From the NCBI RefSeq assembly GCF_004323595.1, contig NZ_AP019373.1:868001-932000 (forward strand): 64,000 nucleotides of DNA, given 5' to 3'. Shown one piece after another: positions 8,753 to 63,716 of the stretch. Both the position numbers and the translations under genes were made by a program. This DNA is from Sulfuricystis thermophila. GTDB lineage: Bacteria > Pseudomonadota > Gammaproteobacteria > Burkholderiales > Rhodocyclaceae. Under the pieces are notes generated by a model that ran no database searches, was not told the origin of the DNA, and saw only the letters and a program-made list of their open reading frames with translations. Numbering within the stretch: the first letter of the stretch is position 1; each line of letters opens with the position of its first letter.

Positions 8753-10200
8753 GGCAGCACGATCCGTGCCGCGAGCCCGCCGCCTTCGCGTGGCAGGAGT
8801 TCCAGATGCCCGCCATGGGCGCGCGCGATGCGCTCGACGATCGCCAGGCCGAGACCGGCGCCGCTCGCATTGGTGCGTGCCGCCTCGCCGCGCGTGAAAG
8901 GCTGCTTCAGGCGCTCGGCGTCCTCTGGAGCGATGCCGGGTCCGCGGTCGAGCACGGCGATGACGAGCCGGCCGTCTTCCCGCTCGAGCGCCAATTCCAC
9001 CGGTGCGCTGCCGCCGCCATGGCGCAGCGCATTTTCGATCAGATTGACGATCGCCCGCCGCAGAGGCTCGCGCTCGACCGGGTGCGAAAACTCGGCGCTG
9101 GCGGGACGGCACTTCACCTTGTCGCCATAGCGCGCGGCGATCTCTTCGAGCCATGCGGCGAGATTCGTCGGCGCCGCTGCGGCACTTACCTGCGCCTGTG
9201 GGCGTGCGAAGTCGAGGAACTGGCCGATGGTGCGATCCATTTCGTCGATGTCGGCCGCCATGCCGGCGCGCGCCTCCGAATCGCTGACCGAGAGTTCGAT
9301 CTCCATACGCAGACGCGCAAGCGGGGTGCGCAGGTCGTGCGAGATGCCGGCGAGCAGCAGGCGGCGATCCTCTTCGAGCCGGGCGAGGTTCGCGCTCATC
9401 TGGTTGAAGGCGTGGGTGACGGCGACGATCTCGTCGGGGCCGCGTTCGGGGAGCTTGGCGGGTGTTTTGCCCTGGCCGAGCTGGTGCGCCGCGCTTTCCA
9501 GTGCCTTGAGCGGACGGGTGAGCAGCAGCACGATCAACCAGGCGCCTGCCAGCGCGAGGAGCAGCACCAGGGCGCCCCAGCCCAGCCACTGCAGCGGAAA
9601 GCGTCGTTCGAGGCGTTCGCGCGGCAGTGCGAGCCAGAATTCGCCTTCCTCGCCGGGAAAGATGCGGAAGCTGACGAACAGCCCCGGCTCGCCATTGAGC
9701 TCGAAGGCAAGCCGTGTCTGCGGGCCGAGCCGCTCGCGCAGGTCGGCCTCCAGATGACGGGTGAGCGGCGAGGGCGGCGGTGGCGTGACGCGGTCATCGG
9801 CTTCTGCCGGATAGACGTGCACACCTTCGCTGTCGGACAGTTCGGCCAACAGGTCGAGGCGCCGTTCCGGTCGCGCGGTGAGCAAGGCGGTGCGCGTCAG
9901 ATTGCTGATGCTGACGATCATCTGGCTCAAGACGTGGGCGCGCGGCTCGATCTCGGCCTGACGGAAGATCGCGAGCCAGGCGGCCACCGCCGCCAGCATC
10001 AGCGTGGCGATCAGCAGGAAAGCGCGCCATAACAGGCTGCGCGGCAGCAATTTAGTGGAATCCACAGCAAAAAATGAGCCAACGATCGTTTCGACGACGA
10101 AAGCTACCCTCGCGGCGGCACGCCGCGCTGACAGTCTCCCCTCCCGCGAGGGAGGGGCTGGGGGTGGGCGGGTGTTTATTTTTGCGCATGGGCATTTCAT
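8710..10200 (-). CDS. EnvZ-type sensor histidine kinase
   Basis: Membrane sensor that phosphorylates the OmpR-like regulator encoded just upstream. In order: first membrane helix (around LLWRAFLLIATLMLAAVAAWLAIF), a periplasmic domain of about 130 residues, a second helix (LGWGALVLLLALAGAWLIVLLL), HAMP, the H-box GISHDLRTPLARLRME, the N-box NLIENALRHGG, then DRGPGI and GAGLGLAIV of the ATPase domain. The start is uncertain. The ATG at 10200 lies inside a dispersed repeat and would give about 33 Pro/Arg-rich residues of repeat origin; GTG at 10065 gives a cleaner 451-aa protein. The last residues (NPDCPLDQADAP) are encoded by the arm of the inverted-repeat element. The signal sensed is unknown. 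Confidence 0.9.
   Translation of the reverse strand: MKCPCAKINTRPPPAPPSREGRLSARRAAARVAFVVETIVGSFFAVDSTKLLPRSLLWRAFLLIATLMLAAVAAWLAIFRQAEIEPRAHVLSQMIVSISNLTRTALLTARPERRLDLLAELSDSEGVHVYPAEADDRVTPPPPSPLTRHLEADLRERLGPQTRLAFELNGEPGLFVSFRIFPGEEGEFWLALPRERLERRFPLQWLGWGALVLLLALAGAWLIVLLLTRPLKALESAAHQLGQGKTPAKLPERGPDEIVAVTHAFNQMSANLARLEEDRRLLLAGISHDLRTPLARLRMEIELSVSDSEARAGMAADIDEMDRTIGQFLDFARPQAQVSAAAAPTNLAAWLEEIAARYGDKVKCRPASAEFSHPVEREPLRRAIVNLIENALRHGGGSAPVELALEREDGRLVIAVLDRGPGIAPEDAERLKQPFTRGEAARTNASGAGLGLAIVERIARAHGGHLELLPREGGGLAARIVLPFNPDCPLDQADAP
9088..9111 (-). repeat. 24-base dispersed motif, copy 1
   Basis: Reads (minus strand) TGCCGT, CCC, GCCAGCGCCGA, G, TTT: an exact consensus copy. It lies inside the histidine kinase ATPase domain and is translated there as CRPASAEF. 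Confidence 0.85.
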
Positions 10201-10233
10201 CCTCTGCGGGTGAGTGTGCTGTCATGCGCGTTT
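10104..10233 (-). repeat. REP-like ~130-bp dispersed repeat, copy A
   Basis: About 85% identical by eye to copy B at 13247-13375. Both contain a perfect hairpin (CCCCTCCC, GCGA, GGGAGGGG), a G-rich tail, TTTATTTTTGCGCAT and, read leftward, an AGAGGATG or GGAGGATG stretch that resembles a ribosome site with start codon. It sits between the OmpR-like gene, whose TAA stop is at its right edge, and the histidine kinase gene. Confidence 0.85.
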
Positions 10234-10975
10234 AGGCCGCATCCCCGCCGTCGGGAACGAACACGTAGCCGAAGCCCCAGACCGTCTGGATGTGGCGTGG
10301 CTTGGCCGGGTCTTCTTCGACGAGCTTTCTCAAGCGCGAGATCTGCACATCGATCGCGCGGTCGAACACGCCATGCTCGCGGCCGCGGGCGAGTTCCATC
10401 AGCTTGTCGCGCGACAACGGCTGGCGCGGATGCTTGAGCAGCACCGCGAGCAGGCTGAATTCGCCGGTGGTGAGCATCGTCGTGCTGCCGTTGCGCCGCA
10501 ACTCACGGGTGGCGAGATTCACCTCGACCTTGCCGAAGCGGACGATCTCCGACGTCGGCGCGGGCGCACCCGCCGGCATCAACCTGCTGCGTCGGCGCAG
10601 GATGGCATGGATGCGCGCGACCAGCTCGCGCGGATTGAAGGGTTTCCCCAGATAATCGTCGGCGCCGAGCTCCAGGCCGACGATGCGATCGATGTCGTCA
10701 CCCTTGGCGGTGAGCATCAGGATCGCGACGTCATGGTAAGCGTCGCGGTTCGCGCGCAGCCGGCGGCAAATCGACAGACCATCCTCGCCGGGCAGCATCA
10801 GGTCGAGCACGATGAGATCATAGAGCTCGCGCTCGAGCTGGCGATCCATCTGCGGCGCGTCGCCCACCGCCTTGACGGTGAAGCCTTGCTCGCCGAGATA
10901 GCGTTCGAGCTGGCTTCTCAGCCGCACATCGTCATCGACGACGAGGATTTTCGGTTTGCGGGTCTCGGTGTTCAT
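10232..10975 (-). CDS. OmpR-family response regulator
   Basis: DNA-binding transcription factor paired with the kinase downstream. The receiver domain (residues 1-120) has the acidic pocket VVDDD, the phosphoacceptor Asp in LIVLDLMLPGEDG, LTAKG and the Lys in LGKPF. The C-terminal winged-helix domain includes LTTGEFSLL, RAIDVQISRLRKLVEEDP and TVWGFGYVF. The protein is 247 aa from the ATG at 10975. Closest to OmpR by motif, but the target genes are unknown. Between it and the kinase lies the REP-like repeat copy A. It diverges from the small secreted protein at 11101. Confidence 0.92.
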   Translation of the reverse strand: MNTETRKPKILVVDDDVRLRSQLERYLGEQGFTVKAVGDAPQMDRQLERELYDLIVLDLMLPGEDGLSICRRLRANRDAYHDVAILMLTAKGDDIDRIVGLELGADDYLGKPFNPRELVARIHAILRRRSRLMPAGAPAPTSEIVRFGKVEVNLATRELRRNGSTTMLTTGEFSLLAVLLKHPRQPLSRDKLMELARGREHGVFDRAIDVQISRLRKLVEEDPAKPRHIQTVWGFGYVFVPDGGDAA

Positions 10976-11100
10976 GATTTGCAAGGATAGCGCCGAATGT
11001 CCGCTGGAATCTTATCCGGATGTTGCATGGCCGGCCCTCGGCAACGGATTGTTACAAAGCCGGGCTCGCCTGGGCAGTGCCGCGTCCTACAATTCCAGTC

Positions 11101-11391
11101 ATGAAAAAGCGCGTGCAGATTCTCTTCCTGCTGGGGTGGCTGGCAAGTATGGCGAGCGCAGGGGCGCAGGAGGCGCCGTTTGCGCCACCCGGCCCGCCGC
11201 GGCCAAGCGAAGCGCCATGGCAGCCACGCTACGGGATGCCCCCGGAACAGCGCGAGCACTGGCGGGAGTGGCGCGAAGAGCGGCGCGAGCGCCACGAGGC
11301 GTGGCGACAAATGTCTCCAGAAGAGCGGCAACAGCTGCGTCGCGACATCCGCGATGCGGGGCGGTTTTATCGGCGCGGTCCTGGGCGCTGA
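11101..11391 (+). CDS. Small secreted Pro/Arg/Glu-rich protein
   Basis: A 96-aa protein with a signal peptide (residues 1-23, cleavage after ASAGA). The mature part is a Pro-rich segment followed by a strongly charged helical run (REHWREWREERRERHEAW) and MSPEERQQLRRDIRDAG. The MSPEER pattern resembles DUF3106-like and CpxP/Spy-like small periplasmic proteins, but I cannot assign a family. It is divergent from the OmpR-like regulator with about 125 bases between starts, so it could be a target of that system. Confidence 0.65.
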   Translation: MKKRVQILFLLGWLASMASAGAQEAPFAPPGPPRPSEAPWQPRYGMPPEQREHWREWREERRERHEAWRQMSPEERQQLRRDIRDAGRFYRRGPGR

Positions 11392-11401
11392 AATTTCCTC
11401 C

Positions 11402-11430
11402 TTGACATCACAGGGTAATGTGCTTATTTA
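11402..11430 (+). promoter_or_regulatory. Candidate sigma-70 promoter of the DsrC-like gene
   Basis: TTGACA (11402-11407) is a perfect -35; the best -10 after 17 bases is TATTTA (11425-11430). It is 70 bases upstream of the DsrC/TusE-like gene, which has its own ribosome site (AAGGAGG). Confidence 0.55.
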
Positions 11431-11499
11431 AAAGCATAGTAAAAGAGTCGGGTAAAGCCGACCGCTCGTTGCACCCGAAACACACCCAAGGAGGCTGCC

Positions 11500-11865
11500 A
11501 TGTACGACATCAACAAGTTCATCGCCAATCCGAAGCTCGCCAATTTCGATGCCGAAGGTTTTCTCGCCGACTTGCCGCACTGGTCGCCGCGCGTCGCCCA
11601 CCAGCTCGCCGAAGAGGAGGGTTTGACCTTGACCGAGGCGCATTGGGACGTGATCCATCACCTGCGCGAGATGTACCGCGCCGAAGGGCCGCAATGGAAA
11701 GCGCGCGACGTGACCCAGGCGCTCGAGAAGGCATTCGCTCATGAGGGCGGCCGTCGGCATCTGTATGCCCTCTTTCCCGGTGGTCCGCTGGCGCAGGGCT
11801 GCAAACTGGCCGGCCTGCCGCTGCCGCAAGGTACGCTCGACCGGTCCTTCGGCAGTGTGCATTGA
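11500..11865 (+). CDS. DsrC/TusE-family protein lacking the C-terminal cysteine
   Basis: A small sulfur-trafficking or regulatory protein of 121 aa. The family fold is clear: WSPRVAHQLAEEEGLTLTEAHWDVIHHLREMY, then LYALFPGGPLAQGCKLAGLPLPQG. In DsrC two cysteines sit 11 residues apart at the C-terminus, and TusE keeps the last one. Here Cys101 (the upstream one) is present, but the terminal position is Thr112 and nine more residues follow (ending SFGSVH). It is thus neither a canonical DsrC nor a canonical TusE, and a regulatory or different sulfur-binding role is possible. Its stop codon directly abuts the stop codon of convergent nikO. Confidence 0.88.
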   Translation: MYDINKFIANPKLANFDAEGFLADLPHWSPRVAHQLAEEEGLTLTEAHWDVIHHLREMYRAEGPQWKARDVTQALEKAFAHEGGRRHLYALFPGGPLAQGCKLAGLPLPQGTLDRSFGSVH

Positions 11866-12651
11866 TCAACTGCTGCCCCAATCATGGGCGTGCAAATGGC
11901 TATGCTGCGCGCCGCCGTGCCGGTGACGGTGGCGGTGCGCGAGATGCGCTTCTTCGAGTAGCGCGAGGTTGCCCAGCGCCGCCTCGACCGGGCCGTCGAA
12001 GAGCAACCGGCCACGTGGGTCCAGGACGATACAGCGGCTGCCGAGTTCGGCGGCGAGTGACAGATTGTGGGTCGCTGCGACCACCGTCATGCTCGATTCG
12101 ATGAGCAGATCGATGAGCCAGCCGACGCTGGCCGGATCGAGGCTGGCCGAGGGTTCGTCGAGCAGCAGCAGTTTCGGCTCCAGCACCAGGATCGCGGCGA
12201 GCGCCACTTTCTGCTTTTCACCGCCGGAGAGCAGAAACGGCGGTTTGTCCAAGAGCGCTGTGAGCCCCAGGGCGGCGGCCCAGTGCGCGACGCGCGCCTC
12301 GACGTCGGCAAGCCCCAGCTGCCGCGGCCCATAGGCGATTTCCTCGCGCACCGTCGGATTGAACAGCATCGCCTCCGGATGCTGGAAGAGCAGCGCGCAC
12401 TCGGTGCGAAAGCGCCGCGCGAAGTGCCGTTCCGCCAGCGCCGACTTTGTGAGCGGCATGCCCTCGTAAAGGAGGGAGCCCGACTGCGGTTCGATGAGCC
12501 CGTTCATCAGCTTGAGCAGGGTGGATTTGCCGCAGCCGTTGGCACCCAACAGCACGAGCTTGTCGCCGGCGCGCACCTTGAGCGAGAGAGTTTCGATCAC
12601 CGGCGGGTCGGCTTCCCAGCCGAAGCGTATGTCGTTGAGTTCCAGCATCAA
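11866..12651 (-). CDS. nikO: Nickel ECF transporter ATPase NikO
   Basis: ATP-binding subunit that powers the NikMQ importer. It has Walker A GANGCGKST, the Q-loop LFQHPE, the signature LSGGEKQ, Walker B LLLLDEP and the switch His in ATHN. The 261-aa protein ends in a His-rich tail (HRHRHRHGGAQHSHLHAH), common in nickel and cobalt proteins and likely to bind metal. Its first codons overlap the nikQ stop. Nickel rather than cobalt is inferred from the NikR operator and the nikK/nikL genes upstream in the operon. Confidence 0.9.
   Translation of the reverse strand: MMLELNDIRFGWEADPPVIETLSLKVRAGDKLVLLGANGCGKSTLLKLMNGLIEPQSGSLLYEGMPLTKSALAERHFARRFRTECALLFQHPEAMLFNPTVREEIAYGPRQLGLADVEARVAHWAAALGLTALLDKPPFLLSGGEKQKVALAAILVLEPKLLLLDEPSASLDPASVGWLIDLLIESSMTVVAATHNLSLAAELGSRCIVLDPRGRLLFDGPVEAALGNLALLEEAHLAHRHRHRHGGAQHSHLHAHDWGSS
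12425..12448 (+). repeat. 24-base dispersed motif, copy 2
   Basis: TGCCGT, TCC, GCCAGCGCCGA, C, TTT. It lies antisense inside nikO and is translated from the minus strand as KSALAERH, a frame not used by the other copies. Confidence 0.85.
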
Positions 12652-13331
12652 TCGAACGTTCCGCGCGAGCGCATCGCCAGCGCCACGTCAAGGGCCTGCG
12701 CCTGTGCCTTGTCGAGCAGGGCGATGACCTGTGCGCCGGCGTGATGGCGACGGTCGAGGAGACGGGGGCGCGCGATGTTCCGGCTAGCGAAAGCCAGGCG
12801 AAAATCACCGAGCACGCGCTCGAAGGTGCGGATCTGGCCGAGCGTCAGTGTGACCAGCCGCCGTGCGGTCGGCAGACCGTCGAGCGCGGCGATGAGATCG
12901 CCTTGCGCGACGAACCAGAAACCGAGATAGACCATCAGCAGCACGCGCAGGTTGGCAAGCAGCAGCCAATCGACATCGATGCGGCCTTGCCACAGACCGA
13001 CCAAGACGACGCCGAGGCTCACCGACAGATTGAAAGCGAGGATCGCAATGAGGCTGCGGCTCAAGATGCGCCAGCGCGTTTTGCCGGCAAGCAGCAAAGC
13101 GAGGGCGAACCCGGCGGCGAGAAGCGCCGGCTGATGGATGAGCGTCGGCGCTGGCAGAACGGCAAGGTAGAGGAGGAGTTTTTGGCGCGGTGTAAAGTGA
13201 AATACAAGGCAAAAAGTGCGCCGCCTTTCGTTTCCTTGACGGCAGCCTACCTTCGCGGCGCAAGCCGCGCTGATAGTCTCCCCTCCCGCGAGGGAGGGGT
13301 TGGGGGAGGGCGGGCGTTTATTTTTGCGCAT
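12648..13331 (-). CDS. nikQ: Nickel ECF transporter membrane subunit NikQ
   Basis: Transmembrane coupling protein (CbiQ/EcfT family) between NikM and NikO. The family core begins at FTPRQKLLLYLAVL and includes several hydrophobic helices, the coupling segment around ASRNIARPRLLDRRH and the terminal ALAMRSRG. The only usable start codon in frame is the ATG at 13331, inside the REP-like repeat copy B. There is no ATG, GTG or TTG between it and the family core. The first 29 or so residues (rich in Pro, Arg, Lys) are therefore repeat-derived, and the repeat also supplies a GGAGG ribosome site. Confidence 0.88.
   Translation of the reverse strand: MRKNKRPPSPNPSLAGGETISAACAAKVGCRQGNERRRTFCLVFHFTPRQKLLLYLAVLPAPTLIHQPALLAAGFALALLLAGKTRWRILSRSLIAILAFNLSVSLGVVLVGLWQGRIDVDWLLLANLRVLLMVYLGFWFVAQGDLIAALDGLPTARRLVTLTLGQIRTFERVLGDFRLAFASRNIARPRLLDRRHHAGAQVIALLDKAQAQALDVALAMRSRGTFD
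13141..13164 (-). repeat. 24-base dispersed motif, copy 3
   Basis: On the minus strand: TGCCGT, TCT, GCCAGCGCCGA, C, GCT (last three bases diverged). Inside nikQ it is read as AVLPAPT. Confidence 0.8.
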
Positions 13332-13375
13332 GGTATTTCATCCTCCGCGGGTGCCGATTGCTGGCATGCGCGTTA
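13247..13375 (-). repeat. REP-like ~130-bp dispersed repeat, copy B
   Basis: Second copy of the repeat at 10104-10233, in the same orientation and the same kind of place: after the TAA of nikM (at its right edge) and before nikQ in one operon. It carries the CCCCTCCC hairpin, a G-rich run and, read leftward, GGAGG then ATG 13331, which is the nikQ start. Confidence 0.85.
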
Positions 13376-14014
13376 GGATGTCCATTTGCGTGCTTTCGCA
13401 TAGCGCCAGACGAACAGGGTGAGCGCCGCTTCGGCGAGGCCTATCAGGGCATGGGGGATCAGGATCGCCGGCAAGGTGATCGACCAGCCGAAGGGAAAGA
13501 ACAGCGGCGAACCGTCGGGTTTGTGGGCGATCAAGGGCTGCAGCCCCAGCACGAGGGCGATGACGATGCCCGGCAGGATGACGGAAGCCCAGGCGGATAA
13601 CAGCACCGCGACGGATTCGTTGCTGCGTTTTACCAGGCGGAAGATGATCAGTGCCGTCCCGCTGCCGATGAACCCCATCGCCAGGGCATTGACCGGCAGC
13701 GCGGTCAAGCCCCCGGCGCCGAAGAGCAGCGCCTGTAGGAGCAGCACGCCGGAATAGGCGAGAAAGGCGAGCCGCCAGCCAAACAGCAGTGCGAGCATTG
13801 CGACACCGATCAGATGCGCCGAGGTGCCGCCGGGCAGCGGCAGCATCACCAGCCCCAGGGCATAGGCGAGCGCCGTGACCATCGCCAGACGTGGCAGCAG
13901 GGTTTCATCCAGTCGCGATTTGAGCCCCCGGGCCGCCCAGACCCACGTCCCGACGGCCAGCAGCGTGGCGGGCAGATAGGTCTGCGGCGAGAGGAAGCCG
14001 TCGGGGATGTGCAT
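13373..14014 (-). CDS. nikM: Nickel ECF transporter substrate-binding membrane subunit NikM
   Basis: The S-component (CbiM/NikM family) that binds the metal ion. The invariant start MHIPDGFLS is present; its N-terminal Met-His contributes to the metal site in this family. The 213-aa protein has about six hydrophobic helices. The start is fixed by that motif, but no good ribosome site precedes it because a heptanucleotide tandem repeat fills the upstream gap. The stop codon lies at the edge of the REP-like repeat. Confidence 0.93.
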   Translation of the reverse strand: MHIPDGFLSPQTYLPATLLAVGTWVWAARGLKSRLDETLLPRLAMVTALAYALGLVMLPLPGGTSAHLIGVAMLALLFGWRLAFLAYSGVLLLQALLFGAGGLTALPVNALAMGFIGSGTALIIFRLVKRSNESVAVLLSAWASVILPGIVIALVLGLQPLIAHKPDGSPLFFPFGWSITLPAILIPHALIGLAEAALTLFVWRYAKARKWTS

Positions 14015-14018
14015 GGCA

Positions 14019-14100
14019 GAGGTCAGGGATCAGAGGTCAGGGATCAGAGGTCAGGGGGTCAGAGGTCAGGGATCAGGGATCAGGGATCAGAGGTCAGAAG
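14019..14100. repeat. Heptanucleotide tandem repeat before nikM
   Basis: About eleven tandem units of a seven-base pattern, GRTCAGR (for example GGTCAGG, GATCAGA), one of them eight bases long. It fills the gap between the stop codon of the barrel gene (14094-14096) and the nikM start (14014), where a ribosome site would normally be. The unit length is not a multiple of three. Confidence 0.9.
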
Positions 14101-16209: not shown

Positions 16210-16218
16210 CGCTGCCTC

Positions 16219-16246
16219 GTATGAAGAAAATCGAGCTTCATCATAC
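16219..16246. promoter_or_regulatory. NikR operator (GTATGA, 16 bases, TCATAC)
   Basis: GTATGA at 16219-16224 and TCATAC at 16241-16246 are separated by exactly 16 bases, identical to the operator described for Escherichia coli NikR. It lies just upstream of nikK, so bound NikR would block the nickel operon when nickel is plentiful. No nikR gene is in the window. Confidence 0.9.
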
Positions 16247-16344
16247 GAAGCGTGCCGGGGAAAAGCAAGCGGGGCAGGCCGATCGGCTGCGCGGGTCACG
16301 GATGGCGACATGCGCGGCGACATGCGCGTTAAGATGGTGGCGCC

Positions 16345-18722: not shown

Positions 18723-19418
18723 GTGAAACTGATTGCCTTCGAAGCGGCCACGCGCCGCCTGTCCGTCGCCTTGTGGTGCGACGGCACCGTGAGCGAAAAA
18801 TGCGCGGATTTCGCCAATGGCGGCTCCGAAGTGCTGCTGCCCTGGGCGCTGGAATTGCTCGCTGAAAGCGGGCTGACGTTGAAACAGCTCGATGGCATCG
18901 CCTTCGGCGCCGGCCCCGGCGGCTTTACCGGTTTGCGGCTGGCTTGCGGCGTCACGCAGGGGCTCGCCTGTGGCCTCGATCTGCCGCTGGTGCCGGTATC
19001 GACCCTGGCCGCGCTGGCCCTGGCGGCGGGCGACGGTTTAGTGCTCACCTGCCTCGATGCGCGGATGAACGAAGTCTATCTCGGCGCCTATCGGGTTGCC
19101 GGGGGGGAGGTCACGGCGCTGATGGCGCCGAAAGTCGGCGCTGGCGGAACGGCACCCCTGCCGGAAGGCGATGGCTTCCGCGGGGTCGGCGATGGCTTTG
19201 CGACACCGCACGGCGAGGCGATCCGCGCCCGCATGGGTGGACGTCTCGAAGCCGTCGATGCGGCGCTATTTCCGAGCGCCGCGGCTTGCGCGCGGCTCGC
19301 CGCCCCGTTGCTCGCGCGTGGCGAAGGCGTGTCGGCGAGAGAGGCGCAGCCGGTCTATCTGCGTGACAAGGTGGCGCTCACCGTCGCGGAACGCCGCGCG
19401 CGCGGCGGTGAGAAATGA
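18723..19418 (+). CDS. tsaB: tRNA threonylcarbamoyladenosine protein TsaB
   Basis: Partner of TsaD and TsaE in making the universal t6A37 modification of ANN-decoding tRNAs. The 231-aa protein has the ASKHA-fold features AFEAATRRLSVALW and the conserved AFGAGPGGFTGLRLACG. I chose GTG 18723, at the start of the conserved KLIAFEAAT segment. rimI overlaps its stop by four bases, a common bacterial pairing. Confidence 0.95.
   Translation: MKLIAFEAATRRLSVALWCDGTVSEKCADFANGGSEVLLPWALELLAESGLTLKQLDGIAFGAGPGGFTGLRLACGVTQGLACGLDLPLVPVSTLAALALAAGDGLVLTCLDARMNEVYLGAYRVAGGEVTALMAPKVGAGGTAPLPEGDGFRGVGDGFATPHGEAIRARMGGRLEAVDAALFPSAAACARLAAPLLARGEGVSAREAQPVYLRDKVALTVAERRARGGEK
19131..19154 (-). repeat. 24-base dispersed motif, copy 4
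   Basis: On the minus strand: TGCCGT, TCC, GCCAGCGCCGA, C, TTT. It lies antisense inside tsaB and is translated from the plus strand as KVGAGGTA. Confidence 0.85.
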
Positions 19419-21956: not shown

Positions 21957-22954
21957 TGAGACGCAAAATCTTCACCCTCGCGCTGCTCCTCCTCGCCGGC
22001 TGCGCCAGCACCGTGCCGGCGCCCGTGACCGAGGTGCAATCGGCCGCGCGCATCGAGACGCCGCGTGTGGCTCGGCCTGCCGAACCCGTGGGCAAGGTGC
22101 ATGTCGTCAGGAAGGGCGATACCCTCTACAGCATCGCCCGCGAGCATGGTCTGAGTCCGCGCGACCTCGCCGCTTGGAACGGTCTCGACAACACGAGCCG
22201 CATCAGCGTCGGCCAGACCCTGCGTCTGACCCCGCCCGGCGCGCCACCGGCGCCTGCTGCAGGGGCGGCGCCATCCCCGGAAGGCGCCGAAGTGCGCCCG
22301 GTCATCGGCAGCGGCGCCGTCGTTGCCCGTCCGCTCGACGGCGCTCCCGCCGGTAGTGCCGTCCCGCCAGCGCCGACGGTGGTGCCCGGCAGCCATGATG
22401 CCGTCAAGCGCGCGCCGAAAGGCGGCAAGCTGCCTTACTCGGCAGAGAATCTCGCTCTGCTCAAGGGCGAATCCGCACCGCCGCCCGCAGCGGCCGCTGC
22501 GCCCGTGCCCGCCCCCGCAAATCCTGCTGCGCCAGCTGCGCCGGCGACATCGCCTGGCGCTGCGACGGACTCTGGTATCGACTGGCTCTGGCCCGCCAGC
22601 GGCAAGCTCATCGCCACGTTCAGCGATGGCAACGGTGGCGCGCAGGCGATCAACCGCGGCATCGACATCGCCGGCAAGATCGGCGATCCGGTGCGCGCCG
22701 CCGCCGCCGGCAAGGTGATCTTCGTCGGCGTCTATCCGAAGCATGGCAATCTCGTCGTGTTGCTGCACGCCGATGGCTACAGCAGCGTCTATGCCCACAA
22801 CAGTCGCATCCTCGTCAAGGAGGGCCAGATGGTCAAACGGGGCGACAAAATCGCCGAGCTCGGCGATTCCGACGCCGATCAACCCAAACTGCATTTCGAG
22901 CTGCGGCACAAGGGCAAGCCGCTCGATCCGCTGAAGCTGTTGCCCGCCCGATGA
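21956..22954 (+). CDS. nlpD: Murein hydrolase activator lipoprotein NlpD
   Basis: Envelope lipoprotein that activates amidases at the division septum. The 332-aa protein has a lipobox (LLAGC, Cys16), a LysM domain (residues 43-87: [26 protein letters not shown]), a long Pro/Ala linker and a C-terminal M23/LytM domain ([24 protein letters not shown]). The domain lacks the full zinc ligand set usual for active M23 peptidases, as expected for NlpD. In other bacteria a promoter inside nlpD drives rpoS; I could not identify one here with confidence. Confidence 0.94.
22357..22380 (+). repeat. 24-base dispersed motif, copy 5
   Basis: TGCCGT, CCC, GCCAGCGCCGA, C, GGT (last three bases diverged). Located in the linker of nlpD and translated as AVPPAPT. 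Confidence 0.8.
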
Positions 22955-26463: not shown

Positions 26464-27450
26464 TTACGGCTGTTCGCGCAATTGCTGGGCGAACCGAACC
26501 ACCGCCATCGCGTAGAAGCTCGAACGGTTGTAGCGCGTGAGCACATAGAAGTTCTGATAGCCCAGCCAGTATTCGGTTGGCTCTCCCGGTGTGACGAGAT
26601 CGATCAGCGCGGCAGGGGCGTCGGGCGCATCGGCAGGGATGTCCACGCCGAAGGCCTTCATCTCCTGCGGCCGCCGCTGGGGCAGGATGCCCTCCCCGAT
26701 CAGGGCGTCGACTGCCGTCTCGCCGGCGCCGACTTTGACCGGGATCGCGAGCGGCCCGCCTTCTTGCCAGCCGTGATCCTTGAGGAAATTCGCCACGCTG
26801 CCGATCGCATCCTCGGCGCTGCCGACGAGATCGATGCGGCCGTCGCGATCGAAATCCACCGCATAGTGGCGAATGCTCGAGGGCAGAAACTGCGGCAGGC
26901 CGATCGCGCCGGCGTAGGAGCCGCGGTAGCTGTCGGGCGGGCGCTGCGCCTCGCGGGCGAGCAGCAGCAGGGCTTCGAGCTCGCGGCGGAACAGCTCGGC
27001 GCGCGGCGGATAGTCGAAGGCCAGCGTCGCCAGCGCCGCGAAGGTATCGAAGCGGCCGAGCTGTCGGCCGTAGATCGTTTCGATGCCGATGATGGCGGCG
27101 ATGATCTCTGCCGGCACACCGGTTTTCGCCTCGGCCCGGGCGAGCGCCGCGCGGTGTTGGCGCATGAAGCGCAAGCCGGCGGCGATGCGTTTGGGTTCGA
27201 TGAAGCGCGCACGATAGGCTTGCCATGAGCGGATGCGCGGATCGGCCGGCGGCGCGATGGCCTTGAGCACGGCGGGGATCGGACGCGCCCGGGCAAACAG
27301 CCGGGTGAGCCGCACACCATCGAGGCCGTGCTTTTCCTGCATCTCGGCGATGAACGCCTGCACCTCCTCGCGCTCGGCAAAGGTTCCGGCGCTGGCGGGG
27401 AGGACGGTCAGGGCGAGCAAAGCAATGACGAGTGGGACAAGCGGTTTCAT
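26464..27450 (-). CDS. mltB: Membrane-bound lytic murein transglycosylase B-like protein
   Basis: Cleaves the glycan strands of peptidoglycan, leaving 1,6-anhydro ends. The 328-aa protein has a signal peptide (residues 1-21, ending ASAG), the catalytic Glu in IIGIETIYGRQLGRFDTF, YAGAIGLPQFLPSSIRHYAVDFDRDGRIDL and a C-terminal WLGYQNFYVLTRYNRSSFYAMAV. No lipobox is seen, so it is probably soluble in the periplasm. The start at 27450 overlaps the stop of the transglutaminase gene. Confidence 0.93.
   Translation of the reverse strand: MKPLVPLVIALLALTVLPASAGTFAEREEVQAFIAEMQEKHGLDGVRLTRLFARARPIPAVLKAIAPPADPRIRSWQAYRARFIEPKRIAAGLRFMRQHRAALARAEAKTGVPAEIIAAIIGIETIYGRQLGRFDTFAALATLAFDYPPRAELFRRELEALLLLAREAQRPPDSYRGSYAGAIGLPQFLPSSIRHYAVDFDRDGRIDLVGSAEDAIGSVANFLKDHGWQEGGPLAIPVKVGAGETAVDALIGEGILPQRRPQEMKAFGVDIPADAPDAPAALIDLVTPGEPTEYWLGYQNFYVLTRYNRSSFYAMAVVRFAQQLREQP
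26713..26736 (+). repeat. 24-base dispersed motif, copy 6
   Basis: TGCCGT, CTC, GCCGGCGCCGA, C, TTT (one core change). It is antisense inside mltB and read from the minus strand as KVGAGETA. Confidence 0.8.
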
Positions 27451-29405: not shown

Positions 29406-30369
29406 AGAGCGCGAGGGCCTTCAGACAAGCATGCAGATGGGCCGGGCCATGCGTCTGCGAGATTTCCCGACCGGGCAGCCGCAAGCCATATGACAGGCCG
29501 GCTGCTTCGGCGTCGAGCACCCAGCGGGCGAGGATCGACAAACGCGTCTCGACATCGAGTGTCGGCGGCAACAGTGTCCAGTCGAACCACAGCGCTTGTG
29601 CCGTCGAACCCGAGAACTGCTTGGTTTGCAATACCGCTTCCGGCCCCAGCCGCGCCGCGGTCTTCCAGGCGACGTGATGGAGCGAGTCGCCCGGCTGGTG
29701 ACGTTTGAGACCGGCGAAATCCTCGTCGCCGGCATCCGATGGCAGGCGGCCGGCCTGCAGGCCACCAAAATTCGGCGCTGGCGGCACGGCACGAGCGGGT
29801 CGCGGATAGACCAGGCAGCGCGCAAAAGGCGCAGCATAGGCCCAGCAGCGCACCAGGCCCAAGGGCCAGACCGTGTCGATCGTCACCCGCGGCAGCGTCA
29901 GCCAGCCGCGCTGCTTCGCCGGCAGAGGCAGCAGCGCGCGGGTGCTCTCCTGTGGCGGCAGATCGATGATGACGGCTGCCTGTCCCGGCAAAAACAGCCG
30001 CACGCGGCGACGCGCGCGGACATCCGGGTTGTGGAGCAGCAGGGGAAAGTGTGCGTCGTCGCCGGCGAACACGGGGGCCGCCTCAGCGACGCCGAGCGTG
30101 ATGCCGGCCAGGTTGCGGAACGTGTGCAGGATCGTGACGACGCCCAGGCCGGCGAGCAGGAACACCAGTGCATGGCCGAGCGAGAGGTTGTAGTTGATCG
30201 CGCCGATCAAGAGTACCAGCAGCGATGCAGCGAACAGCAGCCCGGCACGCGTCGGCAGCACATAGACGCGCCGCTGCGTGAGTACGACCGGCACGGCTTC
30301 CGGCGGGCGCACGCGCAGCGCCCAGGCGACGAACTTCTGCTCGAGGGTACTGCGCGTTGCTGACAGCAT
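29389..30369 (-). CDS. DUF58-family membrane protein
   Basis: A 326-aa protein with two N-terminal membrane helices (AGLLFAASLLVLLIGAINYNL and ALVFLLAGLGVVTILHTF), a beta-rich region and the DUF58 signature DFAGLKRHQPGDSLHHVAWKTAARLG. DUF58 proteins are companions of MoxR ATPases. The gene overlaps transglutaminase by 17 bases, and its start touches the moxR stop. Confidence 0.92.
   Translation of the reverse strand: MLSATRSTLEQKFVAWALRVRPPEAVPVVLTQRRVYVLPTRAGLLFAASLLVLLIGAINYNLSLGHALVFLLAGLGVVTILHTFRNLAGITLGVAEAAPVFAGDDAHFPLLLHNPDVRARRRVRLFLPGQAAVIIDLPPQESTRALLPLPAKQRGWLTLPRVTIDTVWPLGLVRCWAYAAPFARCLVYPRPARAVPPAPNFGGLQAGRLPSDAGDEDFAGLKRHQPGDSLHHVAWKTAARLGPEAVLQTKQFSGSTAQALWFDWTLLPPTLDVETRLSILARWVLDAEAAGLSYGLRLPGREISQTHGPAHLHACLKALALYDHEA
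29768..29791 (-). repeat. 24-base dispersed motif, copy 7
   Basis: On the minus strand: TGCCGT, GCC, GCCAGCGCCGA, A, TTT. Inside the DUF58 gene it is translated as AVPPAPNF. Confidence 0.85.
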
Positions 30370-38242: not shown

Positions 38243-39541
38243 ATGAACGTCGCCGACATCGAATCGCTCGACCACGACGGCCGCGGTGTCGCCCACGTCG
38301 AGGGCAAGGTGGTCTTCATCGAAGGGGCCTTGCCGGGGGAACGGGTGCGCTACCAACGCCTGCGCAGCAAGCCGAAATTCGATACCGGGCGTGTCGAGGA
38401 CATCCTTAAGCCATCGAGCCAACGGGTCGCGCCGCGCTGTCCGCATTACGGCGTCTGCGGCGGCTGCAGCATGCAACATCTGGAGATCGGCGCGCAGACG
38501 GCGATCAAACAGCGCGTGCTCGAAGACGCCTTCTGGCATATCGCGCGTCTGCGCCCCGAGACGATCCTGCCGCCGATCGTCGGCCCGGCTTGGGGCTATC
38601 GGCGCCGTGCACGGCTGACCGTACGCAAGGTGGTGAAGAAAGGCGGCGTGCTGGTGGGTTTTCACGAGAAAAAGAGCAGCTATGTCGCCGACATGACGGC
38701 CTGTGCCGTGCTGCCAGCGCCGATTTCCGCACTGCTGCCGGGCTTGCGGGTCTTGGTCGGCCGGCTTTCGATCGCCGAGCGCTTGCCGCAGATCGAGGTG
38801 GCCGTCGGCGAGGGCCCGCCGGTCTTGGTGTTGCGCATCCTCGAACCGCTGACCGCTGCGGATGAGGCGGTGCTGCGCGGCTTCGCCGAGGAAGTCGGCG
38901 TGCATCTGTGGCTGCAGCCGGGCGGGCCGGATACCGCCGCGCCCTTTCATCCCGCCGATGCGCCGTGGCCGAGTTATCGCCTGCCGGATTTCGATGTCTG
39001 CCTGCGCTTTCGCCCAACCGATTTCACGCAGGTGAATCATGAGGTGAATCGCGTGCTGGTGCGCCGGGCGCTGAATCTGATGCAGGTGCGACCGGGCGAA
39101 ACCATCGCCGACATGTTCTGCGGCTTGGGAAATTTCACACTGCCGCTCGCCCGCCTCGGCGCGCGGGTGGTCGGCGTCGAGGGCAGTGCCGCGCTGGTGG
39201 CGCGGGCACGCGAGAATGCGCTGGCCAATGGCCTCGCCGCGCAGATCGACTATCACGTCGCCAATCTGTTCACGGTCACCGCCGGCGAGCTCGATGGCTG
39301 GGGACGCTTCGACAAGATGCTGATCGACCCGCCGCGCGAAGGGGCGGTCGAGCTCGTCAAATGTCTCGCTGTCGATGCGCCGGCGCGCATCGTCTATGTC
39401 TCCTGCAATCCGGCCACACTCGCGCGCGATGCCGCGGTGCTGGTGCATGAAAAAGGCTATCGGCTCGTCACGGCGGGCATCGCCAACATGTTCCCACACA
39501 CCTCGCACGTCGAGTCGGTGGCGCTATTCGAGCGCGGCTAG
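38243..39541 (+). CDS. rlmD: 23S rRNA (uracil-1939-C5)-methyltransferase
   Basis: Methylates U1939 of 23S rRNA using S-adenosylmethionine. The 432-aa protein starts with a TRAM-like domain, then the iron-sulfur cysteines [10 protein letters not shown] and a later Cys (TACAVLPAP), the SAM loop [25 protein letters not shown] and the catalytic Cys in [13 protein letters not shown]. It converges with the DsbA-like gene, overlapping its end by 18 bases. Confidence 0.95.
38704..38727 (+). repeat. 24-base dispersed motif, copy 8
   Basis: TGCCGT, GCT, GCCAGCGCCGA, T, TTC. Inside rlmD, read as AVLPAPIS. Confidence 0.8.
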
Positions 39542-40646: not shown

Positions 40647-40670
40647 TGCCGTCCCGTCAGCGCCGAGTTT
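40647..40670 (+). repeat. 24-base dispersed motif, copy 9 (intergenic)
   Basis: TGCCGT, CCC, GTCAGCGCCGA, G, TTT. It lies between the terminator and the stop codon of the Bax-inhibitor-1 gene, one of only two copies outside genes. Confidence 0.85.
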
Positions 40671-44999: not shown

Positions 45000-45023
45000 T
45001 GCCGTCTTGCCAGCGCCGAGTTT
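45000..45023 (+). repeat. 24-base dispersed motif, copy 10 (intergenic)
   Basis: TGCCGT, CTT, GCCAGCGCCGA, G, TTT: a perfect consensus copy in the 26-base gap between convergent phosphorylase and glnD, touching the glnD stop codon. No ordinary terminator hairpin is seen here. Confidence 0.9.
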
Positions 45024-54599: not shown

Positions 54600-55969
54600 A
54601 TTCCACCGGAGTCATCTGGACGCTCGGCGCATTCCTGCTGGCGCTTGGCGTGCTGATCGTCGTGCACGAGCTGGGCCATTATTGGGTGGCGCGGCTCTGT
54701 AACGTCAAGATCCTGCGTTTTTCGATCGGCTTCGGCCGGCCGCTCTGGTCACGACGACTGGGACGCGACGGCACCGAATGGCAGATTGCCGCGTTTCCGC
54801 TCGGCGGTTATGTGAAGATGCTCGACGAGCACGAAGGCGAAGTGCCGCCTGCCGAACTGCCGCGTGCCTTCAATCGTCAGAGTCTGGCCAAGCGGGCGGC
54901 CATCGTCGTCGCCGGCCCGCTCGCCAACCTGCTGCTCGCCGTGGTGCTCTATGCCTTCCTGTTCATGAGCGGCGTCGCGGAACCGCGGCCGATTTTTGCC
55001 GCGCCGCCGGAAGGCAGCCTGGCGGCGGAACTGAAAATCGGCGCTGGCGAGACGGCACGCAGCGTCTCCGGCAAGCCGGTGGCGACCTGGAGCGAGCTGC
55101 GCTGGGAAATCCTGCGCCATGTGCTGGCGCGCGATGAGATCGTGCTCGAAACCCTCGATGCCCGTGGCAATATCCAGCTGCATCGCATCGATCTGTCGCG
55201 CCTGCCGCCGGAGGCGCTGGAAGGCGATGTGCTGCCGGCGCTGGGCCTGCGGCTGCAGCCTCCCGATCTGCCGGCGGTGATCGGCAGCGTGCAGCCGGAT
55301 TCGCCGGCCGCACGGGCCGGCCTGCGGGTCGGGGATCGCATCGTCGCGATCGACGGCGCGCCGATGGGCGGTTGGCAGGCTGTCGCAGTGGCGATCCGTT
55401 CCGCCGGCGCGCGTCAAATGACACTCGAGGTGGAGCGTGACGCACAACGGCTTGCCATCGACGTCCAAGCCGAGCTCGTCGAGGAACGCGGCAAGCCGGT
55501 GGCGCGCATCGGTATCGCGGTACGTGACGATCCGGAAGTGCGCCGCGCGTTCCTGGTGACGGTGCGGTACGGTGCGTTCGAATCCCTAAAGCGCGCGCTG
55601 AACCAGACCTGGGATACGGCGACGCTGTCATTGCGCATGATCGGGCGCATGATCATGGGCGAAGCTTCGCTCCGCAACGTCTCGGGACCGCTCACCATCG
55701 CCGACTATGCCGGCCAGTCGGCGCGCATGGGCGGCGAGCATTTCCTGCGCTTCCTGGCGCTGATCAGCATCAGTCTCGGCGTGCTGAACCTGCTGCCCAT
55801 CCCGGTGCTGGATGGCGGGCACTTGATGTATTATCTGGCCGAGCTGATCAAGGGGAAACCGCTCTCGGAACGCGTCATGGCAATCGGCCAGCAAATCGGT
55901 CTGACCGTGCTTGCATTGCTGATGGGGCTGGCCCTTTACAACGACATTTTCCGACTGATTTCCGGCTGA
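54596..55969 (+). CDS. rseP: Site-2 zinc protease RseP
   Basis: Inner-membrane protease that cleaves anti-sigma factors in envelope stress. The 457-aa protein has the zinc motif HELGHYW in the first helix, PDZ domains (residues about 125-310) and the C-terminal [18 protein letters not shown]. It is followed by bamA, the usual order. Confidence 0.96.
55034..55057 (-). repeat. 24-base dispersed motif, copy 11
   Basis: On the minus strand: TGCCGT, CTC, GCCAGCGCCGA, T, TTT. It is antisense inside the first PDZ domain of rseP and read as KIGAGETA, at a place where the protein keeps the length of E. coli RseP. Confidence 0.85.
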
Positions 55970-58261: not shown

Positions 58262-58274
58262 AACAGGAGAGAAC

Positions 58275-58793: not shown

Positions 58794-58807
58794 GCAAGCA
58801 ACTGCAG

Positions 58808-59839: not shown

Positions 59840-60312
59840 ACGCCCCGACCGCCATGGACATCCACCAGATCCTCGAATATCTGCCGCACCGCTATCCGAT
59901 CCTGCTGGTCGATCGCGTGCTCGAGATCGTACCCGGGGAACGCATCGTCGCCCTCAAGAACGTCAGCATGAACGAGCCGTTCTTCCCCGGCCATTATCCG
60001 CATCATCCGGTGATGCCCGGCGTACTGATCGTCGAGGCGATGGCGCAGACGGCGGCGATCCTGTCGTTCCGCAAGATGGACGGCAAGCCCGAGACGGATG
60101 CCGTCTACTATTTCGTCGGCATCGATGGCGCGCGCTTCAAGCGGCCGGTGATGCCCGGCGATCAGCTGATCATCGAAATCACCATCCTCGGCAACAAGCG
60201 CGGCATGTGGAAGTTCGCCGGCAAGGCCAGGGTCGACGGCCAGCTCGCCTGCGAGGCGGAACTGATCTGCACGATGCGCAAGCTGGAAAAGCCGGAACAG
60301 CCGGAACAGTGA
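59836..60312 (+). CDS. fabZ: 3-hydroxyacyl-ACP dehydratase FabZ
   Basis: Dehydrates 3-hydroxyacyl-ACP in fatty acid synthesis. The 158-aa hot-dog protein has [13 protein letters not shown] and the catalytic His and Glu in [23 protein letters not shown]. Sitting between lpxD and lpxA it balances fatty acid and lipid A synthesis. Confidence 0.97.
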
Positions 60313-60313
60313 G

Positions 60314-61096
60314 ATGGCGGTCAGCATCCACCCCAGCGCGCTCGTCGACCCGAAGGCGCGGCTCGGCGAGAACGTCACGGTCGGCGCCTACACCATCATC
60401 GGCGCCGAGGTCGAAATCGGCGATGGCACCTGGATCGGCCCACACGTCGTGATCAACGGGCCGACCCGTATCGGCCGCGACAACCGCATCTTCCAGTTTT
60501 CCTCGCTCGGCGAAGCGCCGCAGGACAAGAAATATGCCGGCGAGCCGACATGGCTCGAGATCGGTGATCGCAACACCATTCGCGAGTTCTGCACCTTCAA
60601 CCGCGGCACGGTCCAGGATGCCGGCGTGACGCGTCTCGGCAATGACAACTGGATCATGGCCTATGTGCATCTGGCGCACGACTGCCAGATCGGCAACCAC
60701 ACAATCTTCGCCAACAACGCGCAACTCGCCGGCCATGTGCATGTCGGTGACTGGGCGATCCTCGGCGGTTATACCGGCGTGCATCAGTTCGTGCGCGTCG
60801 GCGCGCACTGCATGACCGGTGTCGGCAGCGTCGTGCTGCAGGACATCCCGCCCTACGTGATGGCCGCCGGCAACCCGGCCGCACCGCATGGCATCAACAG
60901 CGAAGGCCTGAAGCGGCGCGGCTTTGCGCCAGAGACGATCGCCAGCATCCGCCGCGCTTACAAGACGCTCTACCGCAGCGGTCTCAAGCTCGACGAGGCA
61001 GTCGCGGCGATCTCCTCGGCTGCGCAGGCGGGAACCCCGGAACTTGCTCCGCTGGCTGAATTCCTCGCGGTACCCGGGCGCGGCATCATTCGCTGA
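60314..61096 (+). CDS. lpxA: UDP-N-acetylglucosamine acyltransferase
   Basis: First step of lipid A synthesis. The 260-aa hexapeptide-repeat trimer has [22 protein letters not shown], the catalytic His in [15 protein letters not shown] and [13 protein letters not shown]. It follows fabZ by one base. Confidence 0.97.
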
Positions 61097-61102
61097 TCTG
61101 CC

Positions 61103-62323
61103 ATGACGCGTATTGCCCTGGTGGCAGGCGAGGCGTCGGGCGACCTGCTGGCCGCACACTTGATCGAAGCGCTCAAGTGCCGTCTTGCCAACGCCGAGTT
61201 CTACGGCATCGGTGGGCCGAAGATGCTGCGCGCGGGCTTCGATGCCTGGTGGCCGGCGGAAAGCCTGGCAGTGCGCGGCTATGCCGAAGTTCTGAAGCAC
61301 TATCGCAGGATTGCCGGGATACGCAGGGCGCTGCTCAAGCGTCTGCTCGCCGATCCCCCCGACGTCTTCATCGGCGTCGATGCGCCGGATTTCAACCTGT
61401 GGCTCGAAACTCGGCTCAAGCGCGCCGGCATTCCCACCGTGCACTATGTGAGCCCGTCGGTCTGGGCCTGGCGCGGCGGACGCATCCACAAGATCGCCCG
61501 CGCCTGCCACCGCCTGCTGGCGTTGTTTCCCTTCGAGCCGCCGCTTTATGAAAAAGTCGGTCTGCTGGTCGATTACGTCGGCCACCCGCTCGCCGACGTG
61601 CTGCCGCTCGAATCGCAGCGCAAGCAGGCACGCGAGCGGCTCGCTTTGAATGGCCGCGGGCCAGTGATCGCATTGCTGCCCGGCAGCCGCCAGTCGGAGG
61701 TCGCCTATCACGCGGATCTCTTCATCCGCACCGCGCGCCTACTGCGCGAGCGGTTTCCCGATGCGGTATTTCTGGTGCCGCTGGTGTCGCGCGAGACACG
61801 CACGTCGTTCGAAGAAACGCTCTGGAGGCTCGGTGGCCAGGACTGGCTGATCAACGAGGCGCCGGTGCACCCCGGTTTCGAGATCACCCACATCGAGCTC
61901 GATGCGGCACCGCCCGTCGCCGGCTGCATGAAGCTGTTGTTCGGCCATGGGCAGGATGCGCTCGCAGCCTGCGATGGCGCACTGGTGGCGAGCGGCACGG
62001 CGACGCTCGAAGCGGCGCTCGTCAAGGCGCCGCATGTCATCACCTATCGCATGTCCGAGTGGTCGTGGCGCATCATGAAACGGATGGGCTATTTGCCATG
62101 GGTGGGTTTGCCCAACATCCTCGCCGGCCGTTTCGTCGTCCCGGAATTCCTGCAGTACGAAGCGACGGCGGAGAACCTCGCCCAGGCGCTCGGCAATCTC
62201 GTCCAGGATGAGGAGGTCAAAAAACGTCTGACCCGCTGCTTTACCGAGATGCACCGGCAGTTGCGTCAAAACACCGCCGAGAAGGCGGCCGCGGCGATCC
62301 TGTCGCTGCTCGGACAAGCATGA
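61103..62323 (+). CDS. lpxB: Lipid-A-disaccharide synthase
   Basis: Joins two acylated sugars to form the lipid A disaccharide. The 406-aa GT-B glycosyltransferase has [44 protein letters not shown] and LPGSRQSEV. rnhB overlaps its stop. Confidence 0.97.
61178..61201 (+). repeat. 24-base dispersed motif, copy 12
   Basis: TGCCGT, CTT, GCCAACGCCGA, G, TTC (one core change). Inside lpxB as CRLANAEF. It aligns without a gap to the corresponding E. coli LpxB residues, so it was not inserted. Confidence 0.8.
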
Positions 62324-62883
62324 TCTGCGGCGTCGATGAGGCGGGCAGAGGACCCTTGGCCGGGCCGGTGGTCGCCGCGGCGGTGATCCTCGATCCAACT
62401 CGCCCCATCGTCGGTCTGGCCGACTCGAAGAAGCTGTCATCCGCCAAGCGCGAAAGACTCGCCGATGAGATCCGCGCCAAGGCCATCGCCTGGAGCGTGG
62501 CCGAGGCGACGGTCGAGGAAATCGACATGATCAACATCCTGCAGGCGACGCTGCTGGCGATGCAGCGCGCCGTGGCGGGGCTGGCCGTGCGTCCTGAAGA
62601 GGCGTGGATCGACGGCAACCGTTGCCCGCAACTGGAGATGCCGGCACGCGCCATCGTCGGCGGCGATGCGACGGTGGCGGCGATTTCCGCCGCTTCGATC
62701 CTCGCCAAGACGGCGCGCGACGCCATCATGCTCGACTTGCACGCATGCCATCCGCAATATGGCTTCGACCGGCACATGGGCTATGGCACGCCGGAGCATC
62801 TCGCGGCGCTCGCCGCGCACGGCCCCTGTGATGCACATCGCAAGAGCTTTGCGCCGGTGCGCCAACTGATACTGTTCGCATGA
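62320..62883 (+). CDS. rnhB: Ribonuclease HII
   Basis: Cleaves RNA in RNA-DNA hybrids, including single ribonucleotides. The 187-aa protein has [29 protein letters not shown] and the later acidic residues ([27 protein letters not shown]). Coupled to lpxB and the next methyltransferase gene. Confidence 0.97.
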
Positions 62884-63716
62884 AGACGATCACCTCACGT
62901 GACAACCCGACGTTCAAGGCTCTGCGCGATCTCGCAGGCGACGCGCGGCGGCAGAAGCGTGAAGGCCGCGCACTGCTGGAAGGTCCTCATCTGCTTGCCG
63001 CGGCGCTCGATCATGGCGTGGTTCCCGAGCTCGTCGCCGTGGCGGAAGAAGCCGTCGATCATCCCGAGATCGCCGCCCTACTGGCGCGCCTTCCCGGTGT
63101 GCCGGTGCTTTGTCTGCGCAGCACACTGTTTCGGGAGGTGAGCGAATTGAAGACGCCGGTCGGCATCCTGGCGCGCATTGCCGTGCCGAACGTGACCAAG
63201 GCTAAGGATGCCGTCTCATCAGCGCCGACTTTGGCTCCGGCGGGTGATTGTCTGCTGCTCGATGCGGTACAGGATGCCGGCAACGTCGGCACGCTGCTGC
63301 GCACTGCGGCGGCGGCCGGTGTGCGCGACGTGCTGCTCGGCCCGGGCTGCGCCGGTGCGTGGACGCAGCGCGTGCTGCGCGCTGCGCAGGGCGCGCATTT
63401 TTCGCTCGCCATCCACGAAAATGTCGATCTCGCCGCTTTCGTACAAAGCTTTTCCGGCCAATCGCTGGCCACCGTTGCGCATGGCGGCGAGTCGTTGTAT
63501 GCGCTCGATTTCTCTCGACCGACTGCATGGCTGTTTGGCAATGAGGGAGCAGGGCTCTCCCCCAGCCTCGTGGCCATGGCCGCAAAGCGCGTGACGATTC
63601 CGCTCGCCGCGGACTGCGAATCGCTCAACGTCGCCGCGGCCGCCGCGGTCTGCCTCTTTGAAATGCGCCGGCAGCGCTTGATCAGGCATAATCCTGGCGG
63701 AGAGAGCACGATATGA
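62880..63716 (+). CDS. SpoU/TrmH-family RNA 2'-O-methyltransferase
   Basis: SPOUT-fold methyltransferase of 278 aa: an N-terminal substrate-binding domain ([34 protein letters not shown]), then [36 protein letters not shown] and [22 protein letters not shown]. It resembles RlmB/TsnR-like enzymes; the RNA target is not known. It overlaps rnhB by four bases. Confidence 0.93.
63209..63232 (+). repeat. 24-base dispersed motif, copy 13
   Basis: TGCCGT, CTC, ATCAGCGCCGA, C, TTT (two core changes). It lies in the linker between the two domains of the methyltransferase and is translated as AVSSAPTL. Confidence 0.75.

Follow-up and report, generated by a model that had tools for sequence, protein, structure and literature searches.

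The window analysed here, a 64-kb stretch of the Sulfuricystis thermophila genome (C1:868001-932000 of genome G000), carries a dispersed DNA word of 24-25 bases that is probably a DNA uptake sequence (DUS). Searching the window with the pattern TGCCGTNNNGCCAGCGCCGANTTT and allowing up to 3 mismatches, we found 13 copies, 8 on the plus strand and 5 on the minus strand; six match the pattern exactly, three carry one mismatch and four carry two. In 100 dinucleotide shuffles of the window, the mean was 0.04 copies and the maximum was 1. The original prediction, made from the letters of the window, had listed 13 copies at the same coordinates and strands, with at most two changes in the core, and had placed 11 of them inside genes in four reading frames. 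Our search recovered all of them, and our own gene calls also put 11 of the 13 wholly inside predicted genes, in four frame/strand combinations.

The six exact copies lie in a RisS-type sensor kinase gene (9088..9111, minus; same strand, frame 0), a predicted gene (12425..12448, plus; antisense, frame 2), a gene matching TsaD (19131..19154, minus; antisense, frame 0), a predicted gene without a Pfam match (29768..29791, minus; same strand, frame 2), the 3' edge of a minus-strand open reading frame (ORF; 45000..45023, plus) and rseP (55034..55057, minus; antisense, frame 0). Copies with one mismatch were found in a doubtful gene call without a Pfam match (26713..26736, plus), in a gene matching tRNA (uracil-5-)-methyltransferase (38704..38727, plus; same strand, frame 2) and at a site that is intergenic by the gene calls (40647..40670, plus). 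The four copies with two mismatches are located in a predicted gene without a Pfam match (13141..13164, minus; same strand, frame 2), a LysM/M23 peptidase gene (22357..22380, plus; same strand, frame 2), lpxB (61178..61201, plus; same strand, frame 0) and a SpoU-type methylase gene (63209..63232, plus; same strand, frame 2).

Is the word confined to this window? The whole genome, a single contig of 2,737,315 bases, holds 572 copies at up to 3 mismatches, 286 on the forward and 286 on the reverse strand, and the pattern read backwards had 0 matches in the same genome. The count is thus far above expectation and the strands are balanced. For closer analysis, we used a 464-kb sample of this genome consisting of the window and twenty 20-kb stretches, which contains 89 copies at the same threshold (48 plus and 41 minus; reversed control, 0). 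The word is present in the window and in 18 of the 20 stretches. One of the two empty stretches carries genes for rpoB, rpoC, elongation factors and ribosomal proteins, as read from translations, and the other is a mobile island that encodes a resolvase and DNA methylases. In this sample, sites with 4 mismatches numbered 8 against 3 in the reversed control and sites with 5 mismatches 16 against 16, so that most such sites are indistinguishable from chance; the degenerate remnants proposed at 13653 and 27381 are correspondingly weak.

Using a codon-based gene caller, we found that 60 of the 89 sampled copies (67 per cent) lie wholly in genes, below the coding fraction of 0.82, with 22 copies intergenic and 7 at gene edges. 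All six frames are used; antisense 0 (23 copies) and sense 2 (17 copies) are the commonest and sense 1 (1 copy) is the rarest. Synonymous shuffling within predicted genes left a mean of 9.96 and a maximum of 15 copies in 50 shuffles, compared to the 60 observed. Two outcomes would have spoken against the original prediction, confinement of the copies to the window and counts explained by codon usage; neither was observed. The shuffled mean probably stays well above zero because motif-shaped peptides persist through shuffling.

Individual sites were followed through orthologues from 19 genomes, namely 17 motif-bearing genomes of the genus, G006 and G126. The rseP copy is found at the same residues in 15 of the 17 orthologues found and is absent from G006 and G126; there are no gaps around it in the proteins shown, and the motif is the synonymously most conserved eight-codon window of the gene (1 of 118). 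The lpxB copy occupies the same site in 13 of 19 orthologues. In the SpoU-type gene, where the site falls in a linker whose length varies, 7 of 16 orthologues share the copy. Copies in lpxD and at the 3' end of uppS were seen in other species and not in the window. Inspection for gaps covered three genes (rseP, lpxB and the SpoU-type gene). It had been claimed that protein length in lpxB and rseP is unchanged relative to E. coli and that copies therefore arose without insertion; the rseP alignment agrees with this, and for lpxB the alignment is gapless at the site except for one extra residue in L036.

The 89 copies define a non-palindromic word of 24-25 bases, G-YGCCGT-N-YY-GCCAGCGCC-GA-N-TTT. 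Conservation has a sharp edge, running from the G before TGCCGT (73 per cent) to the TTT, and the flanks are near background. Over 24 positions the word carries 34 to 38 bits, about 36, in each of six sets, namely five genomes and the other genus members with their loci pooled. With the pattern reversed, this test gave 6 matches versus 50 in G126 at the loosest threshold, 1 versus 47 in G028 and none in the remaining four. Dialects in other genera fit one 24-base frame, GCCGT-N-YY-GC-N7-GACTTT. Genera g1, g2 and g104 share YGCCGT-N-YC-GCCAGCGCCGACTTT, the first base being nearly always T in the genome of the window. Genus g85 uses a TCGACTTT form, g11 uses CGCCGTGYYGC-NGN-GACTGACTTT, g106 uses GGCGTRYCGCC-ACGG-CTGACTTT, and g23 has a looser CTGACTTT form together with a minority of a CCGACTTT form. 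A genome of another family, G384, mixes two forms in low number. Separately, G079, from family f20 of the same order, has ten nearly identical GCAGTTTTGCGGGGACTGACTTT copies that resemble the g11 dialect; they could represent an independent repeat or a dialect acquired by transfer.

A de novo word search uncovered the dialects of G028 and G102. The same search, run on 60-100 kb each of G006, G023, G036, G051 and G040, gave no obvious uptake word, a weak test given that it did not rank the true word top in the first 60 kb of G000 and that G040, in which no word surfaced, has 113 copies in the generic frame. The G006 sequence examined, about 98 kb, showed no other uptake word, with the same weakness.

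How far does the word extend among relatives? In the genus of the window genome, 17 of 18 other genomes have 188 to 681 copies at up to 2 mismatches, and G006 has none. A slightly relaxed pattern run over 297 genomes of the family gave more than 100 matches in 38 genomes and 0 to 37 in all others; the 38 belong to seven genera (g1, g2, g9, g38, g85, g86 and g104). Scanning 77 genomes with the generic frame at up to 1 mismatch added three genera, g11, g23 (113 copies in G040) and g106 (211 in G123), with 0 to 6 matches per strand in the reversed control. Six of the seven g11 genomes have 359 to 453 copies, and the seventh, G210, has only 18. Across 399 genomes of the order, of which 386 come from 50 other families, the highest counts outside the family were 20 (G384) and 10 (G079), the remaining genomes having 9 or fewer, like the control.

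Named sequences were reached with an LpxA query. We took the best 80 named loci, each 3 to 21 kb long, the nearest at 82 to about 74 per cent identity and labelled as Rhodocyclaceae and Rhodocyclales bins, one Sulfuritalea bin and Accumulibacter. Ten of the 80 loci carry at least 2 copies at up to 3 mismatches, under the titles Rhodocyclaceae, Rhodocyclales, Sulfuritalea, Rugosibacter and uncultured beta proteobacterium (L047); two loci of this set (L009 and L010) are apparently the same as G016 and G013 and hence not independent of them. L029, L031 and L081 have one weak match each. No copies of the window-type form were found in the 3- to 21-kb loci of Accumulibacter, Azonexus, Thauera, Denitromonas and Zoogloea.

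Trees built from PilQ and from DprA for 20 genomes bear on the history of the word. The near-empty G006 groups with G000, leaving the motif-rich G012 outside, with support of 96 (PilQ) and 81 (DprA), and in both trees the near-empty G293 is placed among motif-rich genomes of g2, g38 and g104. These positions suggest loss or decay of the word in G006 and G293. The trees do not decide the case of G210, which groups with the motif-rich G028 but has the motif-poor G023 as a neighbor, the five other g11 genomes being rich. Deep branches are weakly supported, and the word may have arisen once or more than once. We also observed that the PilQ proteins of G026, G102, G203, G055, G126 and G293 (g9, g85, g104, g38 and g2) are set apart by a long branch of their own, whose length far exceeds that in the DprA tree; this hints that the secretin was exchanged or changed fast in these motif-bearing genera (G293 itself being nearly empty). 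In G293, a g2 genome in which the word is nearly lost, overlapping CAGAGGCGCAGA repeats are abundant in the stretches L121-L124.

Of the competence genes named in the original prediction, comEC and pilQ are encoded in the genome of the window. ComEC was found in 60 of 61 genomes, the miss being G018 (83% complete), and PilQ and DprA were each found in 35 of 35 genomes, 34 of them over the cut-off. The minor pilin operon of G000, at about C1:1709.7-1712.9 kb, encodes a PilY1 match, a PilW match, a protein with the N-methylation motif alone, a protein without a match, a GspH/FimT-type pilin and a pilin that matches the ComP_DUS profile at 42.8 bits (cut-off, 27.3). Isoelectric points of pilins from four genomes gave nothing firm.

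The word is also found on viral contigs. At least 120 IMG/VR viral-contig stretches contain the exact word, and 80 loci (L195-L274), each chosen for at least 1 copy, were kept among the matches listed; together they span 741 kb and contain 138 copies when up to 3 mismatches are allowed. Three copy-rich loci were tested for gene content: L227 matches RecT and YqaJ, L226 a DnaG/D5-type primase, and L199 an RNA ligase alone. Phages of these hosts thus seem to carry host-type words, and phages and prophages of Pasteurellaceae are reported to accumulate their own uptake word (PMC6776037). One viral contig (L214) has five exact copies at 883-2238; the first four follow one another at intervals of 316 bases, which points to the word being part of a tandem repeat there.

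Two further features of the window lie apart from the word. A tandem repeat of GGTCAGGGATCAGAGGTCAG type occurs at about 14007-14100, at the start of an ORF, and the genes at 130-3425 resemble what we take, from their translations, to be the DsrO/DsrP/cytochrome cluster of sulfur oxidizers.

On the basis of these results, we consider it likely that the word is the DNA uptake sequence of this Rhodocyclaceae lineage, about twice the known length and in a third family. The proposal that selection or copying acts on DNA rather than on protein, and that the word behaves as uptake sequences do, is backed by the copy counts, the strand balance, the use of six frames, the gapless sites, the synonymous conservation in rseP, the dialects of the genera and the competence genes. 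In this scheme, an outer-surface protein, perhaps a type IV (minor) pilin, would recognize the word on free DNA. The pilus would then retract and, together with ComEC, import the bound DNA, which would enter the chromosome by recombination. Fragments with good copies would enter more often, so that good copies would be favored over mutated ones, and this molecular drive would build and maintain copies by substitution. A change of receptor would yield new inner bases, and hence dialects, and copies would decay once the preference was lost. The nearly empty species within motif-rich genera look as they would after loss of an uptake preference.

Several observations weigh against the uptake reading. 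With 24-25 bases, the word has about double the length of the uptake words known so far (9-12 bases). ComEC, PilQ and DprA are present nearly everywhere, in motif-rich and motif-poor genomes alike; even G006, G293 and G210, which are almost devoid of the word, retain PilQ and DprA. The ComP_DUS profile matches 51 of 53 genomes and GspH 56 of 59, rich and poor alike, and the motif-rich G102 has neither match. We therefore rejected presence or absence of competence genes as the explanation of the distribution, the genes being nearly universal; they support capability, not specificity. At synonymous sites lpxB is only weakly special, 11 of 210 windows reaching its value. Finally, scarcity of the word in the mobile island and in constrained genes is suggestive only, with about 0.4 empty stretches expected by chance in a sample as small as 20 stretches.

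Could the word instead tag the nucleoid evenly, as the binding site of a chromosome-organizing or segregation protein of the KOPS, matS or SMC-loader kind? The word is long and specific, it is present in the window and in 18 of 20 stretches, and its counts per 20 kb resemble random scatter (mean, 3.8; variance, 3.5; 20 stretches), all of which would fit such a site. We nevertheless regard this explanation as improbable. With replichores placed by GC skew, the sampled copies divide into 26 plus/21 minus and 18 plus/18 minus, with 4 plus/2 minus in two stretches near zero skew, so that the 464-kb sample reveals no replication polarity, and the strands are equal genome-wide. Moreover, the inner bases differ by genus, some species of motif-rich genera are almost empty, and copies occur on phage-type contigs.

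A hairpin unit in this genome bears on the question of a mobile origin. In G000 we examined 15 loci where a copy of the word is split by a unit of 54 bp that has a strong hairpin, the order being GTGCCGTC, unit, rest of the word. The loci include L108:14057-14164, L315:5012, L316:5483-5555, L135:18341-18413, L136:1050, L098:13340-13412 and others; eight come from the evenly spaced sample and five (L315-L317) from stretches picked for known paired copies. Some hairpin arms are degenerate, and two units stand in tandem at 4 of the 15 loci. Eight loci lie wholly in predicted ORFs, six are intergenic and one is at an edge. Since 54 bases amount to 18 codons, ORFs with the unit stay open; one gene, read from its translation as murA, contains two units.

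Comparison with G002, a close relative (LpxA, 93 per cent), covered about half of the 15 loci, the others lacking an orthologous flank in the fetched stretches, and some of the alignments are rough. At a site at 597 kb, G002 has a plain copy and G000 has 54 extra bases; two further sites look likewise unoccupied in G002. The murA site is occupied by the unit in both genomes, and at the site in L106 no copy at all is present in G002. An inverted 9-base partner within 60 bases was found for 11 of 89 copies in G000, 2 of 72 in other genomes of the genus, 3 of 47 in G126, 0 of 47 in G028, 1 of 17 in G102 and 1 of 41 in G123.

These data bear on the idea that the copies are remnants of a palindromic mobile repeat, such as a repetitive extragenic palindrome (REP), a miniature inverted-repeat transposable element (MITE) or a Rickettsia-type in-frame element, of which the 24-mer would be the conserved part. 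The idea draws on the 54-bp unit, which contains most of the word and occurs at 15 examined loci, partly in tandem and partly in genes; it conflicts with the rarity of inverted partners even in G000, the lack of conserved flanks, the rseP and lpxB sites without insertion and the site that is plain in G002 and occupied in G000. We regard it as largely refuted and very unlikely; the unit seems to ride on the word rather than to have given rise to it.

A Chi-like recombination signal or the site of a DNA-modifying enzyme would account for strong over-representation in the genome, yet signals of the Chi type are short and oriented with replication whereas this word has 24 bases and is unoriented, and bipartite methylase sites are normally not enriched to hundreds of copies, leaving this explanation barely credible. 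Selection on protein or codon usage, to which the preference for antisense 0 and sense 2 and the roughly 10 matches left by peptide-keeping shuffles might point, is refuted as the main cause by the six frames used, the 22 of 89 copies between genes and the synonymous shuffles at 15 or fewer versus 60.

Beyond identifying the word as an uptake sequence, we put forward a broader model, tentatively and with more doubt than confidence. Rhodocyclaceae may possess a third, unreported self-DNA recognition system built on a modular 24-base address, in which YGCCGT-N-YY-GC and GACTTT form two nearly invariant outer half-sites and the inner seven bases serve as a lineage code. The neisserial 12-mer would possibly consist of the same half-sites minus one helical turn (10 bases), and a selfish 54-bp hairpin unit would spread into the addresses, often in frame within genes.

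If the uptake reading is right, a third family with a word twice as long, in at least ten genera and with several dialects, offers a new replicate for the question of why uptake sequences evolve. It would also provide a test case for co-evolution of receptor and word and for the mucosal-habitat explanation. On this reading, these little-studied bacteria should be open to natural transformation, and the tag may help to transform them. A 2020 article places strong uptake sequence preference in species of two families, Pasteurellaceae and Neisseriaceae, mainly of mucosal habitats (PMC7811141). A text search of the open-licence literature for the letters of the motif gave no match, which does not prove absence in print, and in the same literature, judged by titles where these were listed, we found no report of an uptake sequence in Rhodocyclaceae, Betaproteobacteria or genomes from metagenomes.

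The neisserial DUS has 10-12 bases and 943 to 3,236 copies per genome, and comes in related dialects with a conserved core (PMC3630211); in the same article, Frye et al. report no obvious uptake word in five genomes, including Chromobacterium. The DUS of Neisseriaceae resembles the word reported here in being dispersed in many copies, with related dialects, a conserved core and type IV pilus competence genes. The present word differs in its 24-25 bases, in its about 190 to 680 copies in the genus, in the rarity of inverted pairs and in its receptor, which is only conjectured. In the neisserial word, GCCGT is directly followed by CTGA; the CTGA-type dialects here read GCCGT-N10-CTGAC, a resemblance that is perhaps due to chance. 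Kinship of the two words, at which the original prediction hinted, is a possibility, and the difference between them would then amount to one helical turn; we arrived at this conjecture with the data already in hand.

In Pasteurellaceae, the uptake signal sequence (USS) consists of a 9-base core flanked by AT tracts. It is like the present word in its many copies, in having two main dialects and in its accumulation in prophages (PMC6776037). In contrast to the USS, the word described here is a rigid two-part 24-mer of another family, known largely from environmental bins. Rickettsia palindromic elements and REP/MITE repeats are similar in that the 54-bp unit, at a minority of sites, can sit in frame in genes, but the 24-mer itself is non-palindromic and its sites are gapless where examined. 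HIP1 of cyanobacteria, an 8-base palindrome, is massively over-represented within genes; it shares with the Rhodocyclaceae word this abundance inside genes, whereas the latter is an asymmetric word of 24 bases with dialects.

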